A DNA stretch of 64,000 nucleotides, taken from Planctomycetota bacterium (GTDB taxonomy: Bacteria; Planctomycetota; Planctomycetia; Gemmatales; Gemmataceae). The first letter of the stretch is position 1, and each line of letters begins with the position of its first letter. This document shows positions 29,147-37,232 of the stretch, one piece after another. Location of the stretch: assembly GCA_021781415.1 (NCBI GenBank), contig JAJXWW010000163.1, forward strand, positions 1 through 64,000, given 5' to 3'. The notes under the pieces were generated by a model. It did no database searches, had not been told where the DNA came from, and saw only the letters and a list, made by a program, of their open reading frames with translations. A program made the position numbers and the translations under genes.

Positions 29147-30373
29147 TCATTTACCGTCGAACAAATCGTGTTCCGGCCATCTGTCGATTTTTTCAATCGC
29201 CTCGTGGAGGATCGGCCACGGTCTCTTGGCTGCCGCCTTGCGGTCCCGTCTGCCGGCTTCCTCGTCATCGCCTTTGAAATTGCCGTTGAAGAACGCCGCC
29301 CAACAGACGCCGTTGGGCATGTGTTCGATCCAGGTGGCGATACCGGCCACGCCGCCGTTTTTCGAGTACAGGACGCCTTCCGGCGAACGCTGCACCACAT
29401 CCCAACCCAGGCCGTTATGGCGCTCGTTCGCTTTCTTGCCCAGCGACGGCAAAGGGGCCAGCATTTGTTGATAGGATCGTTCCGATAAGAAACGCCGGCC
29501 GCGGCCGCCGTCCAGCGCGGTTACGAACCGCATGGCATCCACGGTCGAAAGTACCCAATTGCCGCCCCCTTGCTTCATCTGGCCGTGTCCGCCGGGGTGC
29601 CGCTTGCCGCTGGCGGGGTAGCGATGAACCTCGTCCGGCAAATAGCCTTCCATGCGGTCGAGGTGAACGTCGTGAATGCCCATCGGTTTGAAAACGTGTT
29701 CGATCGTGTACTTTTCGTATTCTTGACCCGCCGCCTGTTCCACGACCAGACGCAGCGTCAGAAAGCCGAGATTGGAATATCTCGTCTCGGTGCCCGGATC
29801 GAACAGCAGCGGCTTGCTCATGTCGAACGCGATGACTTGTCTCAGAGAGATCGGCGGTTCGATTTTCAGGCGGCGTTCGATTTCTGGAAGCGAGCCTTGG
29901 CTGCGCGCCATGCCGCCGGCGTGATGCAGCAGTTGGCGCACGGTTATTTCTCGCAGTCGGGGATCGACCTTCGCGCTCGGAAATGGTTTGAGATCCTTGA
30001 GCAACACGAACACCTTATCGTCCAAACGGAGTCTCCCCTCATCCACGAGCTTCAAAAGGGTTACACCGATGATGGGTTTGCAACAACTGGCGATATTGAA
30101 GCGCGAGATGGGGCGCACGGGTTTGTTGTTCTCCACGTTGGCCCAACCGTAGCCGTGCGCGAACACCAGCCGGCCATCCTTGGCAATGGCCAACGATGCG
30201 CCGGGAATGTCGTGTTCGCGGAGAAACTGCACCATCAGCCGATCGAGCCGTTGCAGGCGCGGCGCGGCTTTGCCGGTAATCGGCGGTTCTCTCTTCTCGG
30301 CACCGCGCAGAGGAGACACGGCGGCCAACGAAACGCAAATCCACAACGAGAACAATCGAAGAAGAGAAGACAT
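29147..30373 (-). CDS. Beta-lactamase-fold serine hydrolase (class C / penicillin-binding-like)
   Basis: A 408-residue exported protein with a signal peptide (LLRLFSLWICVSLAAV). The serine beta-lactamase motifs are present: SCCK (SxxK nucleophile, in FNIASCCKPIIG), YSN (in TRYSNLGFLTL) and a Gly-rich third region near the C-terminus (NGLGWDV). These match DUF/Pfam Beta-lactamase (PF00144) enzymes, which include peptidases, esterases and D-aminopeptidases; the substrate cannot be predicted. I start at ATG 30373, with GGAG nine bases upstream, rather than the TTG of the track. It is convergent with the 27284 gene. Confidence 0.88.
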   Translation of the reverse strand: MSSLLRLFSLWICVSLAAVSPLRGAEKREPPITGKAAPRLQRLDRLMVQFLREHDIPGASLAIAKDGRLVFAHGYGWANVENNKPVRPISRFNIASCCKPIIGVTLLKLVDEGRLRLDDKVFVLLKDLKPFPSAKVDPRLREITVRQLLHHAGGMARSQGSLPEIERRLKIEPPISLRQVIAFDMSKPLLFDPGTETRYSNLGFLTLRLVVEQAAGQEYEKYTIEHVFKPMGIHDVHLDRMEGYLPDEVHRYPASGKRHPGGHGQMKQGGGNWVLSTVDAMRFVTALDGGRGRRFLSERSYQQMLAPLPSLGKKANERHNGLGWDVVQRSPEGVLYSKNGGVAGIATWIEHMPNGVCWAAFFNGNFKGDDEEAGRRDRKAAAKRPWPILHEAIEKIDRWPEHDLFDGK

Positions 30374-30933
30374 GAAGTGAGTCTCCAAGCCGAACGGCCT
30401 TACGGCGAACGATTTCGTCGACGCCCTAGAAGCCTTAACTTACAAAAAAGGGAGTGAATGAGTCAAGTTTCATGCCGGGGATCGCTTGGATCTCCAGATA
30501 GCGTTCGATTTCTCTGTCGCGTTGGTCGAAGCGCTGGCGAAAGGAGGACTCGGAAGACCTTCGCTGCCATCCCAATCGTTCGGAGATCGAGGGCGGTATT
30601 TTGGAGCAAAAGCAAAATGAGTGATCCCCGTCTTCGATTGTGCCGTTATAATACCAATGGGCTTCGATGTCCGTCGATGCCTCAATCGTGCGATAGGGTG
30701 GGCACGGATGACCGATACGAACGGTTCTGCGAGAAGCGGAACCCGGTCGGCAAGTTAATCGCTCTCGGTAAGGTCCGCACGTTGGACACGAACCACCCTG
30801 CTCGCACCGGCTCATCCGCCTGGACCGCACGGACGGCTCTCCTTCCAGGCCGATGAATCCTCTGTGGGTCATTCGTGCAGCACCATCGGGATGCGTCTTC
30901 GTGATCCGGCTGGGACGCGAAAGGGCCGATCCC
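30374..30933. other. Intergenic region without a supported gene
   Basis: Overlapping ORFs run on both strands (132 and 175 codons) but neither has a recognisable domain, ribosome site or coding bias. A TATAAT box stands at 30647-30652 on the plus strand without a good -35 partner. I see no repeat or structured RNA signal here. Confidence 0.5.
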
Positions 30934-31407
30934 ATGTTCCACGCTCTGTCTTCGTTGGGCAAGGCGGCGGCATTGCTCGCGGTGGTTTTAGCCGCCGCTC
31001 CCCATGCCTCCGCTCAAACCTCGTCATCGGGACACGTTCCCGCTCGGACGCCGTATCCCTCCCGCAACTCCGTGGACGCGACCACCCCCCAACTCTACCC
31101 CGGCGACCACCTCTTCCAAGCGACCATGAAAATCGCGCGCTCGTATCGCAATGTCGAAAGACCTGTTCAAGTTCCGCCTCGCCGCCCAACCGCGCTGCAA
31201 GGGAAGGTCGTGCCGATGGAAGTGACCGTGACCGAACCGGAGGGGCCAACCGAGATGGTTTCCATTCGTGGGCCGGACGGTCAAGTCCGTTCGTTCCCCC
31301 TCGTCGGCGGACGCAAGGCGATTAAGGCGCGCACGCTCATTGTCCGTCCGGGGCAGACGCTCAACCTGACGATTTACGGAGGCCGCGTGACGGTGGCGCG
31401 AAAGTGA
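30934..31407 (+). CDS. Small secreted hypothetical protein
   Basis: A 157-residue exported protein with signal peptide (KAAALLAVVLAAAPHASA), a Pro/Ser/Thr-rich linker, and a C-terminal beta-rich segment (MEVTVTEPEGPTEMVSIRGP, ending LIVRPGQTLNLTIYGG). I choose ATG 30934, preceded by AAAGGG; the ORF track's longer start includes 27 non-homologous-looking residues. The product looks like a single Ig-like or cupredoxin-type domain; function unknown. Confidence 0.7.
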   Translation: MFHALSSLGKAAALLAVVLAAAPHASAQTSSSGHVPARTPYPSRNSVDATTPQLYPGDHLFQATMKIARSYRNVERPVQVPPRRPTALQGKVVPMEVTVTEPEGPTEMVSIRGPDGQVRSFPLVGGRKAIKARTLIVRPGQTLNLTIYGGRVTVARK

Positions 31408-31414
31408 TTGCCCA

Positions 31415-32698
31415 TTAGCGAAAGAACAACGCGGTCGCCAAGGCAAAGACGGGCAGCAGCACCGGCAGCGAGTAGGCAAGATAGCCGAGAAACGAGGGCA
31501 TCCGATAACCCATGTGTTCGGCAATGGCGCGGATGAGGAAATTCGGCCCGTTGCCGATGTAGGTCAACGCGCCCATCCACACCGCTCCGCAACTGAGGGC
31601 GGCGAGCAGTTCGGGGCGCGCGCCGGAGAGTACGCGGGGACCGCCCGGATCGGCCAATGTTGCGAAGGCGAGATACGTCGGCGCGTTGTCCAGCACGCTC
31701 GATAGCCCGCCGGCGGACCACAGCAAGCGCGCCGGGGTCCAGTCCGAAGTCGGCAGCGAGCCAAGGAGTTGCAACGCTGGTGCCATGGTGCCGAAGATGC
31801 CGGCGAAGAGGATGGCCACCTCGCGCAGTGGCGTCCATACCAGCACGCTCTTTTCTCGGCCCGGACGATGAATGAGCAGAACGGCCAGCGCCGTCAACGC
31901 GGCCAAGACGACGATCCCGCCCCACGGAGACAACCACGGATCCCGCCAGGCCAAGCCGTTGGCGCGGAGAAATCGCCCCAAAGACTGCGCAATCGACGGA
32001 GCTTGCAACAAGAGAGTCGCGATCACCCCCGCCAAAAACAAGAGCGCCGTTGTCAACCCCTCGACGCGGAGCGGATGCCGTTCCTTGGGAGTTGCGGCCC
32101 AATCTCCTCTGGCGCGCGTGTCCCAGAGATAAAAGACCAGCAGAATAAGTCCATTGACGACGGACCATTGCGGCCACAGACGCAGCGTCCAGAAGAAGTC
32201 CACGCCTTTCAGAAAACCCAAGAACAAGGGCGGATCGCCGACCGGCAGCAGCAGACCGCCACAATTCGCTACCGTGAAGATAAAAAATATCGGAATGTGT
32301 CGATTGTGCTTGCGGTGGTGATTGGCGCGGAGCAGGGGGCGGAGCAGCAGCATACTCGCGCCGGTAGTGCCGATGAGATTGGCCAGAATCGTGCCCAAAG
32401 CCAACCAGAGTGTGTTGCCGCCCGGTCCATTGGGTAAATCGCCGTGAATGACGATGAGGCCCGATACGGCATACAGCGCCGCCAGCAACAGGAGGAATTG
32501 CGCATACTCGGTCAGGGCGTGCCACAACAGCTCGGAAAATCCCTGCAACACGAGCCAAAGGATGGCGGGTACGGTTAACACCAGCGTCACCCACGCCTTG
32601 TTGCGATCCCGCTCCCAAAAATGACCGTGCAACAACGGCATTAAGGCGATGGCCAGCAACAGGAAGACAAAGGGACCAACCTGGAACAGGAGTGTCAT
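31415..32698 (-). CDS. NhaD/CitM-type (ion transporter superfamily) membrane transporter
   Basis: An integral membrane protein of 427 residues with about ten hydrophobic helices and the family signatures of the arsenite-antiporter/citrate/Na+:H+ (NhaD) superfamily: LIGTTGASMLLLRPLL and FTVANCGGLLLPVGDPPLFL, a paired re-entrant GxxxxPxGxP arrangement. A Na+/H+ antiporter is the usual annotation for such planctomycete proteins. I use ATG 32698 (MTLLFQVGPFVFLLL); ATG 32773 is an alternative, and neither has a strong ribosome site. The gene is convergent with the small secreted protein gene, eight bases away. Confidence 0.85.
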   Translation of the reverse strand: MTLLFQVGPFVFLLLAIALMPLLHGHFWERDRNKAWVTLVLTVPAILWLVLQGFSELLWHALTEYAQFLLLLAALYAVSGLIVIHGDLPNGPGGNTLWLALGTILANLIGTTGASMLLLRPLLRANHHRKHNRHIPIFFIFTVANCGGLLLPVGDPPLFLGFLKGVDFFWTLRLWPQWSVVNGLILLVFYLWDTRARGDWAATPKERHPLRVEGLTTALLFLAGVIATLLLQAPSIAQSLGRFLRANGLAWRDPWLSPWGGIVVLAALTALAVLLIHRPGREKSVLVWTPLREVAILFAGIFGTMAPALQLLGSLPTSDWTPARLLWSAGGLSSVLDNAPTYLAFATLADPGGPRVLSGARPELLAALSCGAVWMGALTYIGNGPNFLIRAIAEHMGYRMPSFLGYLAYSLPVLLPVFALATALFFR

Positions 32699-32826
32699 GT
32701 GTAGCCGTGAACCGAGGGATCGAGGACGCCAAATGCGCTTGCTTTTCTTCGCCGGAAGAGCATTATAGGACATCTTAGGTTTCGCGCCAGGGCAAGAAGG
32801 GCGCGTCGGAGCTTGGGAGGGAAGGG

Positions 32827-33588
32827 ATGCCTCAGCCAGCGGGAAGGTCGATTCCTCTATCGTTGCCGCGTCAATTGATCTGCGATTATTTGCACTTCGC
32901 TCGGCAAATCCCCACGGTGCCTGTACAGCGACGGATGCGTTTGGGCGCGGTCGTCGCCGCTCGTGCCGCCACGGGGTTGCGTCCGAGTTGGTGCGCGCTG
33001 TTTACCAAAGCCTACGGTTTGGTGGCAGCCACCACGCCGGAGTTGCGCCGCTCTTATCTATCTTTCCCCCGTCCTCACCTATACGAACATCCCGTCAACG
33101 TCGCATCCATTGCCGTCGAGCGCAAATTCGGCGACGAAAATGCCGTCTTCTTCGCCCATTTGCGCCGACCGGAAGCGCTCGGCCTGGCGGAGATCGACGC
33201 GCGCCTGCGCCGCTTCAAGGAGCAACCCATCGAATCCATCGGCGACTATCGGCGCATTCTGCTCTTGAATCGCTTTCCCCGACCGCTTCGTCGATTGCTG
33301 TGGTGGATCGGTCTGAACGTCTGGGGCCGCAAACGCGCCGCCTTCATGGGTACCTACGGCGTCACGGTGTACGCCGGTCTCGGCGCGGCCTCGCTGCATC
33401 CCCTGTCTTTGCTGACGACGACTCTGAACTACGGCATCATCGAAGAAGATGGCTCGGTGGACGTGCGCCTGACCTACGATCATCGCGTCATGGACGGTGC
33501 CACGATAGCGCGGGCCTTGGCCGAGCTGGAGCGCGTGTTGACTCACGAAATCCTCGCCGAACTGCGCTACCTCCCTCTCGCCGCCTAA
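32827..33588 (+). CDS. 2-oxoacid dehydrogenase acyltransferase-like (CAT fold) protein
   Basis: A 253-residue protein resembling the catalytic domain of dihydrolipoyl acyltransferases but without lipoyl or E1-binding domains. The C-terminal motif DHRVMDGATIARAL corresponds to the DHRxxDG active-site motif of that fold, with the active-site His. Stand-alone members are seen in planctomycetes and may use acyl-CoA donors for unknown acceptors. No E1 or E3 genes are adjacent, so this is not part of a conventional dehydrogenase complex here. Function is inferred from the motif alone. Confidence 0.8.
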   Translation: MPQPAGRSIPLSLPRQLICDYLHFARQIPTVPVQRRMRLGAVVAARAATGLRPSWCALFTKAYGLVAATTPELRRSYLSFPRPHLYEHPVNVASIAVERKFGDENAVFFAHLRRPEALGLAEIDARLRRFKEQPIESIGDYRRILLLNRFPRPLRRLLWWIGLNVWGRKRAAFMGTYGVTVYAGLGAASLHPLSLLTTTLNYGIIEEDGSVDVRLTYDHRVMDGATIARALAELERVLTHEILAELRYLPLAA

Positions 33589-33903: not shown

Positions 33904-34530
33904 ATGTTGGCTTTAATTGACGAGAGTGGCGATCCCGGAATGAAGCTCACGACGGGTTCCTCTCCGCTCTTCACGGTGGCGATCATCGCTCTGCAAGATC
34001 CCGATTCCAACGAGTGCGATAGACGCATCAATGCACTCCGTTCCTCTCTTAATTTAAAGACGGACTTTGAGTTTCACTTTCCCAAAAGCGTAAAGTACCG
34101 GGAGGTCTTTTTGCGTACCATTGAGGAGATTCCCTTCATATTCTTTTCGTGTACGCTCTTCAAACACAAACTCTCCGGAAAAGACTGGCACAAAAAGGAG
34201 TATCTTTACCAACGAGTTGCGATAATGGCGCTTAATGCTGCGCTACCTTCTCTCTCTGAAACCCGTCTGTGGCTCGATGCAGGCAGCAGTAGGCAGTTTG
34301 ATAACGATTTGCTGGCTCATCTACGAAGGCACGCCGGTCACAGGGATGGCCGGCCCATTATTGTTGCTACGAAAAGACACGAATCCCACAAATGCAATAT
34401 GATCCAAATGGCCGACATGGTATGTGGCGCTGTTCATTGCTCCCATCGAGGAGAGCAAGAGTCCCACAAAACCCTTCGCAGGCTTTTGAGACGCCGAGAA
34501 GGCAGGGTTTTGAAGTTTCCCGATGGCTAA
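33904..34530 (+). CDS. DUF3800 domain-containing protein
   Basis: A 208-residue protein starting MLALIDESGDPG, the hallmark opening of DUF3800 (an RNase H-like fold with a D-E-x-G motif). A later MIQMADMVCGAVH carries the C-terminal conserved Asp. DUF3800 proteins are frequent in phage, defence islands and mobile DNA and are suspected nucleases. The composition is lower in G+C than the genes around it, suggesting transfer. The ribosome site is weak. The next feature, 7 bases after the stop, is the poly-A side of the minus-strand terminator. Confidence 0.85.
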   Translation: MLALIDESGDPGMKLTTGSSPLFTVAIIALQDPDSNECDRRINALRSSLNLKTDFEFHFPKSVKYREVFLRTIEEIPFIFFSCTLFKHKLSGKDWHKKEYLYQRVAIMALNAALPSLSETRLWLDAGSSRQFDNDLLAHLRRHAGHRDGRPIIVATKRHESHKCNMIQMADMVCGAVHCSHRGEQESHKTLRRLLRRREGRVLKFPDG

Positions 34531-34536
34531 GATGAG

Positions 34537-34572
34537 AAAAAAACAACCCCGGTCACTACTGATCGGGGTTGT
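34537..34572 (-). terminator. Rho-independent terminator of the candidate small RNA
   Basis: A 9-bp stem (ACAACCCCG with CGGGGTTGT) and 12-base loop at 34543-34572, followed on the minus strand by seven T residues (34537-34543). The orientation excludes it as a normal terminator for the plus-strand DUF3800 gene. Confidence 0.88.
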
Positions 34573-34731
34573 CCAATACTCGCCTGTCCGGGTGAGGAAG
34601 GCCATCCAGAGGATGACTCTTGTCGCCGCCTTGGCAAGCAAGGGGGCTAATCCTCACCTAAGAACCACCGCTCGCCCCTGCGGCGCTCTGTGGCGTGTTT
34701 GTTGCTTCTTGAGGTACGTTTGATACCTCCA
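34537..34731 (-). ncRNA. Candidate structured small RNA, ~195 nt
   Basis: The minus strand between 34738-34766 (promoter) and 34537-34572 (terminator) appears to be a compact transcript of about 195 nt. Visible helices in order are GAGGTA/TACCTC near the 5' end, AAGAA/TTCTT closing onto CCAC/GTGG and CGCC/GGCG, GGTGAGGA/TCCTCACC enclosing CCTTG/CAAGG and AGAG/CTCT hairpins, and finally the terminator. No good ORF with ribosome site is contained; a 30-codon frame begins within the -10 box and so would lack its start. It lacks tmRNA, RNase P, SRP or tRNA signatures. Size would suit 6S RNA, but the fold is not a single long hairpin, so I leave it unnamed. Confidence 0.6.
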
Positions 34732-34737
34732 TCTAAC

Positions 34738-34766
34738 ATTATCGGTCCCTCTGCCCTAAAAGTCAA
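34738..34766 (-). promoter_or_regulatory. Sigma-70 type promoter for the candidate small RNA
   Basis: On the minus strand, TTGACT (34761-34766), a 17-base spacer and GATAAT (34738-34743) match the housekeeping consensus at 10 of 12 positions. The predicted start is near 34731. Confidence 0.75.
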
Positions 34767-34884
34767 GGCATTTGTAGGACAAATCTCGCGTCCTTCGCAT
34801 CGTGGGAGCGAAACCGAGGATGCGGAGGTGGAATAAGTCACCGATTGTTACAACCTATCCGACGCCCGTTGTCGGAAGAGAATC

Positions 34885-35685
34885 CTATTTTTCCACCGCC
34901 ACGACGTTGATGGCGTGCAATAGTTCCTCGAACCAGGACACCAGAGTTTGGGAGTCTTCGGCATGCGCGGTGACATCGTTTGGAGCCAAGGGGCCGACGC
35001 CGACGGCAACGCCGCCGTGCCCTGTCACGGCTTCGAAGGCTTCGCGGTCGTTGGGAGCGTCTCCGGCATAGAAGAGAAACGACGGTTCGCCGACCTGTTC
35101 CAACATTTTGCGCACGGCATCGCCCTTGGTCCAAGTGCCACCCACCAGCACCTCGACGGCGCGAGGGGCATCGACGATGCGCAGTTTTTCGGCCCACGAC
35201 TCAAGAAAACCCAGAATGCGCGCTTTCACTTCGGGAAGCAGCGACTCCTCGACTCCTCGATAGTGTACCGTGAAACCGTAGCGTTTATGCTCGACCCACG
35301 CGCCGGGATAGACGCGCTCGATGGCACGGAGACGGCGTGTGATTTCGTCGATCAATTGCACGCTGTCGCGGGCGGCGGGGTGAACGATCAGACTGCCTTG
35401 CAAGCGCATCTCGATCCCGCTTAGCCCGCTGTAGAGCAATTGCGGCAATCCGATCATCTCTTCCAATTCGTCGATGCGGCGTCCACTGAGAACGCCGACG
35501 TGAACGCGAGGCCGAGCTGCCAACTCGGCGAGAAGTTCGCGCGTTCCCGCCGCAAGCCGAGCCTGCCACGGATGTTCGACGATCGGCGTCAGGGTGCCGT
35601 CGTAGTCGAACAGCAACAGTAACTTCTCGCCGGAATGGTAGGCGGCGACAAGCGGCATCAGAACGTCGGGGAAAGGTTCGTTCAC
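34885..35685 (-). CDS. otsB: Trehalose-6-phosphate phosphatase
   Basis: Removes the phosphate from trehalose 6-phosphate, the last step of OtsAB trehalose synthesis, an osmoprotectant and storage route. The 266-residue HAD-superfamily protein carries LLLLFDYDGTLTPI (motif I, nucleophile Asp), SGRRI (motif II) and GDAPNDREAFEAV (motif IV Asp pair). It starts at GTG 35685, overlapping the otsA stop by four bases (GTGA), so translation is probably coupled. Note the order is otsA then otsB on the minus strand. Confidence 0.94.
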   Translation of the reverse strand: MNEPFPDVLMPLVAAYHSGEKLLLLFDYDGTLTPIVEHPWQARLAAGTRELLAELAARPRVHVGVLSGRRIDELEEMIGLPQLLYSGLSGIEMRLQGSLIVHPAARDSVQLIDEITRRLRAIERVYPGAWVEHKRYGFTVHYRGVEESLLPEVKARILGFLESWAEKLRIVDAPRAVEVLVGGTWTKGDAVRKMLEQVGEPSFLFYAGDAPNDREAFEAVTGHGGVAVGVGPLAPNDVTAHAEDSQTLVSWFEELLHAINVVAVEK

Positions 35686-37232
35686 GATACGCTCAACTTC
35701 AGTAAGGGCGTGCCGTTCTTGTGGGGCGAACGCAGGCCGCGCCGGAGTACCAACGTCTCTTCCGGTTCCACGTATTGACCGGCGGCCGACAGCAACATCC
35801 CCGCCCAGCGGTAGATGTTGTTATCCGACACCTGACGCCGCATGCGCTTCATACGACGCCGTTGCTCGGATGCCGGCATCGTCAGCGCCTTGTGATACGA
35901 GTCGGCCAAATCGTCCAAAGCATAGGGATTGACAATTACCGCGTCGGGCAGCTCGCGGGCCGCTCCGGTAAACTCCGAGAGAATCAGTACGCCTTGCTCG
36001 TCCGCGCGCGCGGCGACAAACTCCTTGGCCACGAGATTCATGCCGTCATGCAGCGAACTGACGACGCATGCCGAGGCCATGCGATAAAGCAGATACAATT
36101 TGTCCGGTCCATGATGCTCGTGCAAGAATACGATGGGATCCCAGGTCGAGTCGCCGTGCCGCCAGTTGATCTCCTCGACCAGCTTTTCGACTTCCTCGTT
36201 GAGCGCCCGATAGTCGCCGATGTGGACGCGGCTGGGAGCGCCGACTTGCACGAAACAAAACTTGCGCCGCCAATCGGGATACCGGCAGAGAAAGCGATCG
36301 ACCGCCCGCAGCCGTTCCGGGATCCCCTTGATGTAATCGACCCGGTCGACGCCAACCAGCAACGGCAGATTGCCGACGCGCATCTGGGCGCGGAAGCGTT
36401 TGCTGGCGCGGTCGAGATCGGGCGGGGCCAGGTTCGCAATCTCGTCCGGATCGACGCTGATCGGCTGAGGTTTGATGCTCGTCGATTGGCCGCGCCGCGT
36501 GACGGCGAAGCGCTCGAAACAGACGCGCGCCTCTAAATTGCGATCGACCGTCTCCATGAAATTGTTGCAGTGATACTGCGTGTGGAAGGCGAGCAGGTTG
36601 TTGCCGAGCAGGCCGTCGAGAATCTCTTCCTTCCACGGACAGACGCGAAACACTTCCGGATTGGGCCACGGGATGTGCCAGAACTGAACGACGATCAGAT
36701 CGGGCCGAGCCTGCCGCAACATGCGCGGCAAGAGCGCGAAATGATAGTCTTGAACGAAGACGATGGCCGATTCGCCCTCAATCTCTTCTAAAACGGCTTC
36801 GGTGAACTTGCGATTGACGCGGCGATACGCCTCCCAATGTTCGGATTCGAACCGGGGTCGGGTGTAGGCGGCGTGACACAACGGCCAAACGGCGGAGTTG
36901 GCGAAGCCGTAGTAATATCCCTCCTCTTCCTCGCGGCTAAGCCAGACGCGGCGGAGGGTGTAGCAAGGGTTGTCGGGGGGAACGCGGAAGCGGCCTTGCT
37001 CGTCGCTGACGGCGCGATCGGCGTCACCGCTGCCGTGCGCCACCCAAACGCCGCCGCAGGCACGCACGACCGGATCGAGCGCCGTCGTCACGCCGCTGGC
37101 CGGTCGAACGCAGAGGATCTCCTCGCCGCGGCGCACATGAATGTACGGTTCGCGATTGGCCACGACAACGAGACGATGATTGGCCAGCCGCGTTTGTACC
37201 ACTTCTTCCAGCCGCTCTTTTGTCCATGCCAT
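35682..37232 (-). CDS. otsA: Alpha,alpha-trehalose-phosphate synthase (GT20)
   Basis: Transfers glucose from a nucleotide sugar to glucose 6-phosphate. The 516-residue GT20 enzyme has the N-terminal glucose-6-phosphate loop region ([12 protein letters not shown]), [24 protein letters not shown], the [16 protein letters not shown] signature and the C-terminal [14 protein letters not shown] nucleotide-sugar-binding motif with EFTGAA after it. I choose ATG 37232, preceded by GGAGGGAACAGC, an excellent ribosome site; the track start adds 27 residues without support. It forms an operon with otsB. Confidence 0.95.

Follow-up and report, generated by a model that had tools for sequence, protein, structure and literature searches.

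DUF3800 proteins are described as having an RNase H fold and as being associated with putative non-coding RNAs in PMC10910872, which cites Weinberg 2017, and some type VI-F and V-A2 CRISPR loci also contain DUF3800 (PMC10910872, PMC12669027). For the catalogued DUF3800-linked RNAs, we found no function reported in the literature. Here we analysed a 64,000-nucleotide stretch from a bacterium of the Gemmataceae (contig JAJXWW010000163.1, positions 1 to 64,000; hereafter the window), in which an earlier note had proposed a structured small RNA from the letters of the sequence. Among the nearest homologues of the DUF3800 protein encoded in the window, eight loci carry the Rfam family DUF3800-IX in the slot that the window RNA also occupies, directly behind the DUF3800 gene and on the strand opposite to it.

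The locus spans 34766-34537 on the minus strand. The sigma-70-type promoter TTGACT-17-GATAAT is present at 34766-34738, as the note had it, with 10 of 12 consensus matches. Since the 2.5-kb stretch that was scanned contains 2 promoter-like sites where 0.9 are expected, this promoter is only suggestive when taken alone. A promoter also precedes each of the two homologous RNAs presented below, namely TTGACG-16-TAGAAT in genome G046 and TTGATT-17-GATAAT in genome G039. At the other end, the intrinsic terminator was found at 34573-34537, again as described, with a hairpin followed by seven T. The RNA of about 195 nt, claimed to contain multiple helices on this strand, has a predicted fold of -85.1 kcal/mol compared with -71.7 for shuffled sequences (z -3.24; 1 of 200 shuffles was as good). 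Its conserved core (34574-34702; models R1-R3) is closed by helix P1, in which CAAACACGCC pairs with GGCGAGTATTG. The hairpin P2 (34666-34685) has 6 pairs and an 8-nt loop, and all 6 pairs show compensatory changes. Helix P3 (34591-34658) closes the junction that holds P4 (34625-34647) and P5 (34599-34620); compensatory changes were seen in 5 of 8 pairs in P3, in 5 of 8 pairs in P4 and in 2 pairs in P5. The last of these, GUCAUCC-UCU-GGAUGGC, is the helix most conserved in sequence, and its U-G pair is kept in all three members. A 5' hairpin, GGAGGTATCAAACGTACCTC (34711-34730), is particular to the window copy: it is missing from G046, whose core starts about 8 nt past the -10 element. The 30-codon frame that had been noticed starting inside the -10 element does exist, as the tail of an ORF at 34647-34841. 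The indels between relatives are not multiples of three (the core measures 129 nt in one and 136 nt in the other), so coding is unlikely, in line with the earlier claim, and we rejected a coding function.

BLASTN of 149 related genomes returned one clear relative, in G046; there too, the match immediately follows a DUF3800 gene and is encoded on the other strand. The other matches were weak and partial, and the one that was read (L004) gave no sign of the RNA. A covariance model built from the window core alone recovered the G046 locus at full length (E 3.4e-16 per genome). Five helices are common to the two RNAs, with double compensatory changes in 12 of 40 pairs. Read as the minus strand, the alignment of these two sequences has 78 of 80 cells paired; the plus-strand reading has 73, a difference due to G-U pairs. 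Using the two-sequence model on 95 genomes, a third member was found in G039 (L110:1501-1641; 34 bits, E 2.7e-4 per genome), with its terminator directly after P1. In the alignment of all three, which was fitted to the structure and favours the pairing result somewhat, 94.2% of cells form standard pairs. Sliding the partner by 1-3 columns lowers pairing from 94% to 30-48%. Double compensatory changes occur in 22 of 40 pairs, a count reached by 0 of 500 shuffles. The earlier note had made its proposal depend in part on conservation and covariation in relatives, and both were found, with the promoter kept in both relatives. Overall, these sequence comparisons support the prediction of a gene for a structured small RNA that has a promoter and a terminator of its own.

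The RNA is known from these three members. Among the sampled genomes no member was found outside the Gemmataceae, in scans that could miss members, since scoring was limited to a few top candidates in each genome. Model matches in G530, G061, G057 and G698 (E 0.004-0.05), all in loci of about 3 kb without DUF3800, were set aside as chance. Plasmid and phage collections gave no convincing match to the RNA, and the plasmids gave none to DUF3800. A pattern scan of IMG/VR with the P5 motif returned 14 loci, 0 with DUF3800 and 0 matching the model, and the P1 pattern found nothing there.

The RNA had been placed between a DUF3800 gene and otsB. It does adjoin the plus-strand DUF3800 gene, but the reference to an upstream region of otsB was wrong, as the RNA lies downstream of otsB. 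The informative neighbour is DUF3800 (33904-34530, plus strand), not otsB. This gene, convergent with the RNA, encodes 208 aa with an RNase H-like fold (PF12686, E 2.1e-11), and DUF3800 is the only domain that Pfam detected in the protein. No solved structure matches it by sequence. With an AlphaFold2 model (pLDDT 86.5) as the query, Foldseek returned RNase HII (1eke; probability 1.00, E 1.9e-3) and a hybrid-bound RNase H3 (4py5; probability 0.99). As modelled, the protein resembles RNase HII/HIII, and this result agrees with the published RNase H fold of DUF3800 and with its occurrence in some CRISPR loci. Residues D6, E7, E56, D125 and D171 are invariant among near relatives, and both features looked for in the protein partner of an RNA cofactor, the RNase H fold and the acidic residues, are present. 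In PADLOC, a related protein appears as the candidate PDC-M04A (E 2.2e-10). Relatives at 28-37% identity are found in Verrucomicrobiota, Nitrospirota and other Planctomycetota.

The two genes are arranged tail to tail, with the last T of the RNA 6 nt short of the DUF3800 stop codon. Because the predicted ends of both transcripts are only a few nucleotides apart, and read-through from DUF3800 would produce an antisense of the RNA, one could suppose that the convergent transcript regulates DUF3800 in cis, either through transcription interference or by pairing as an antisense with the tail of the mRNA. We regard such regulation as improbable, since pure interference or antisense would not call for five conserved helices maintained by compensatory changes, strand-specific G-U pairs would likewise be unneeded, and the RNA is kept in G039 without an adjacent DUF3800.

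In the closest relative, G002, both flanks of the pair (29904-33586 and 34886-37185) are present at about 90% identity to the window, but the 1.3 kb between them is missing; these flanks lie on separate contigs, and a joined empty site is therefore not demonstrable. The three genomes of the same genus contain neither a DUF3800 match nor the RNA. We infer that DUF3800 and the RNA behave as an accessory cassette. At the left edge of the cassette, the segment 33582-33620 has 86-92% matches at two other places in G002. It is possibly a dispersed intergenic repeat, whose core occurs once in the window.

The tails of other DUF3800 genes were examined as well. In 19 of 44 DUF3800 loci, a sigma-70 promoter that matches the consensus at 10 or more of 12 positions lies within 320 nt and points back at the gene; the other strand gave 0, and 0.6-0.8 were expected from shuffles. 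Not every one of the 44 is an independent case, the viral loci being closely related, for instance. The window genome itself has three DUF3800 genes, and by reading each of them carries a promoter-like, hairpin-ended unit at its tail; the promoter scoring covers two of these three tails. The RNA sequence classes track the DUF3800 protein tree, with 7 changes, the lowest number possible, compared with 18.8 when shuffled, and the proteins of the window and of G046 pair in the tree with support of 100/98. This means that many DUF3800 genes have a convergent RNA with its own predicted promoter at the tail, and that the type of RNA tracks the protein clade.

Several of these neighbouring RNAs form groups of their own. 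A second unlisted group (L029, L031, L032, L079, L080, L081, L084 and L093) lies downstream of DUF3800 on the opposite strand. Its members have a AACTATGAATTGACCTG..GGACAGGGTTCGG-like core in common, a rough alignment of the eight gives 19 consensus pairs, 9 of them with a double change, and those scanned had no Rfam match. Two further small groups of RNAs that resemble one another, also behind DUF3800 genes (L083, L086 and L088; L089 and L097) gave no Rfam match at the cut-off, and L097 sits in the window's own genome, on contig C214. Virus-classified contigs from IMG/VR (L045-L049) encode a DUF3800 that falls in the same broad clade, and next to it a convergent RNA that is conserved among them and is their own; tRNA genes are also close by in L045 and L046.

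The linkage between the RNA and DUF3800 is strong, and it is not absolute because of two cases. In G046, the DUF3800 gene (L042:2905-3351) lacks ~80 residues at the N-terminus, among them the DESG motif, and the adjoining RNA is intact; this truncation represents either decay or an assembly error or chimera. In G039, no DUF3800 was found within the 12 kb read around the RNA copy, and the genome has a distant DUF3800 elsewhere (L091). The G039 copy, with its promoter and terminator, would be expected if the RNA were an independent trans-acting small RNA of the Gemmataceae for which adjacency to DUF3800 is secondary. We consider this very improbable: the window and G046, in different genera and gene contexts, both have the structured RNA at the DUF3800 stop codon with the same geometry, making two of three members, despite only about 35 DUF3800 matches in 95 genomes of the family (DUF3800 is present in 24 of the 95), and elsewhere this slot beside a DUF3800 homologue is taken by different RNAs.

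Survival of the RNA after loss of its partner would also be compatible with an antitoxin-like role, in which DUF3800 is a putative toxic nuclease neutralised by RNA binding, as in type III toxin-antitoxin pairs. The persistence of the RNA where DUF3800 is truncated (G046) or absent nearby (G039), its separate, strong promoter and the tight RNA-protein pairing by clade all speak for such a role. We nevertheless think it unlikely, as the two genes converge instead of forming an operon and the RNA folds as a single body, with no obvious repeats by reading.

Rfam offered no family for this RNA. No model reached its cut-off anywhere in the window, in line with the earlier note, which had matched the RNA to none of tmRNA, RNase P, SRP RNA, tRNA or obvious riboswitches, and a permissive scan of the RNA region gave chance-level scores only. 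The 6S model had no match at the cut-off in the window or in the permissive regional scan, and DUF3800-IX (RF02968) had none to the window RNA up to E 5 in the region and none at the cut-off in the window. We are confident that the window RNA is a DUF3800-associated RNA. Because no Rfam model fits, it is, as far as sequence can tell, an unlisted subtype, with DUF3800-IX as its nearest counterpart by position and protein clade. The addition to the catalogue is an unlisted RNA subtype with covariation-supported structure.

We consider it reasonably probable that the predicted ncRNA and the convergent DUF3800 gene constitute a two-gene accessory cassette, with the RNA as the likely cognate cofactor of the nuclease. 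The RNA would be transcribed separately from its own promoter and would fold as a multi-helix body closed by P1. The RNase H-fold protein may then bind it in trans, and for such an RNA-protein complex we put the chances slightly above even. In the complex, the RNA could act as cofactor or controller of the nuclease, be it as scaffold, activity switch or guide, and the cassette would probably be a mobile, defence-like module. A broader and much more speculative proposal is that DUF3800 with swappable, clade-specific convergent RNAs makes up a nuclease system of the RNase H family that stands alone, outside CRISPR and OMEGA, and is RNA-dependent and possibly RNA-guided; the window RNA would be a new subtype within it.

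Compared with known systems, the locus resembles OMEGA and CRISPR in that a structured RNA is encoded beside an RNase H-fold protein; unlike there, the layout is convergent, and no guide segment was identified in the window RNA. In type III toxin-antitoxin systems, the RNA consists of tandem repeats processed by the toxin and lies just upstream of the toxin gene, whereas the window RNA is convergent and downstream of DUF3800, with no repeats apparent by reading alone. DUF3800-VI (RF02915) is likewise a structured RNA linked to a DUF3800 gene, but its position in L070 is upstream of the gene, with both on one strand, and its Rfam type is cis-regulatory; therefore DUF3800-associated RNAs are not uniform as a kind. 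Other DUF3800-linked RNA groups (labelled B, T, S, U and V) are found at a comparable position behind DUF3800, and several of them have a clear promoter, but they have no sequence similarity to the window RNA, and model R3 finds none of them. DUF3800-IX differs in size, its model being 67 nt long compared with about 195 nt and five helices plus a terminator in the window RNA, but like the window RNA it is a small structured RNA right behind a homologous DUF3800, on the opposite strand, with a terminator-like final stem.
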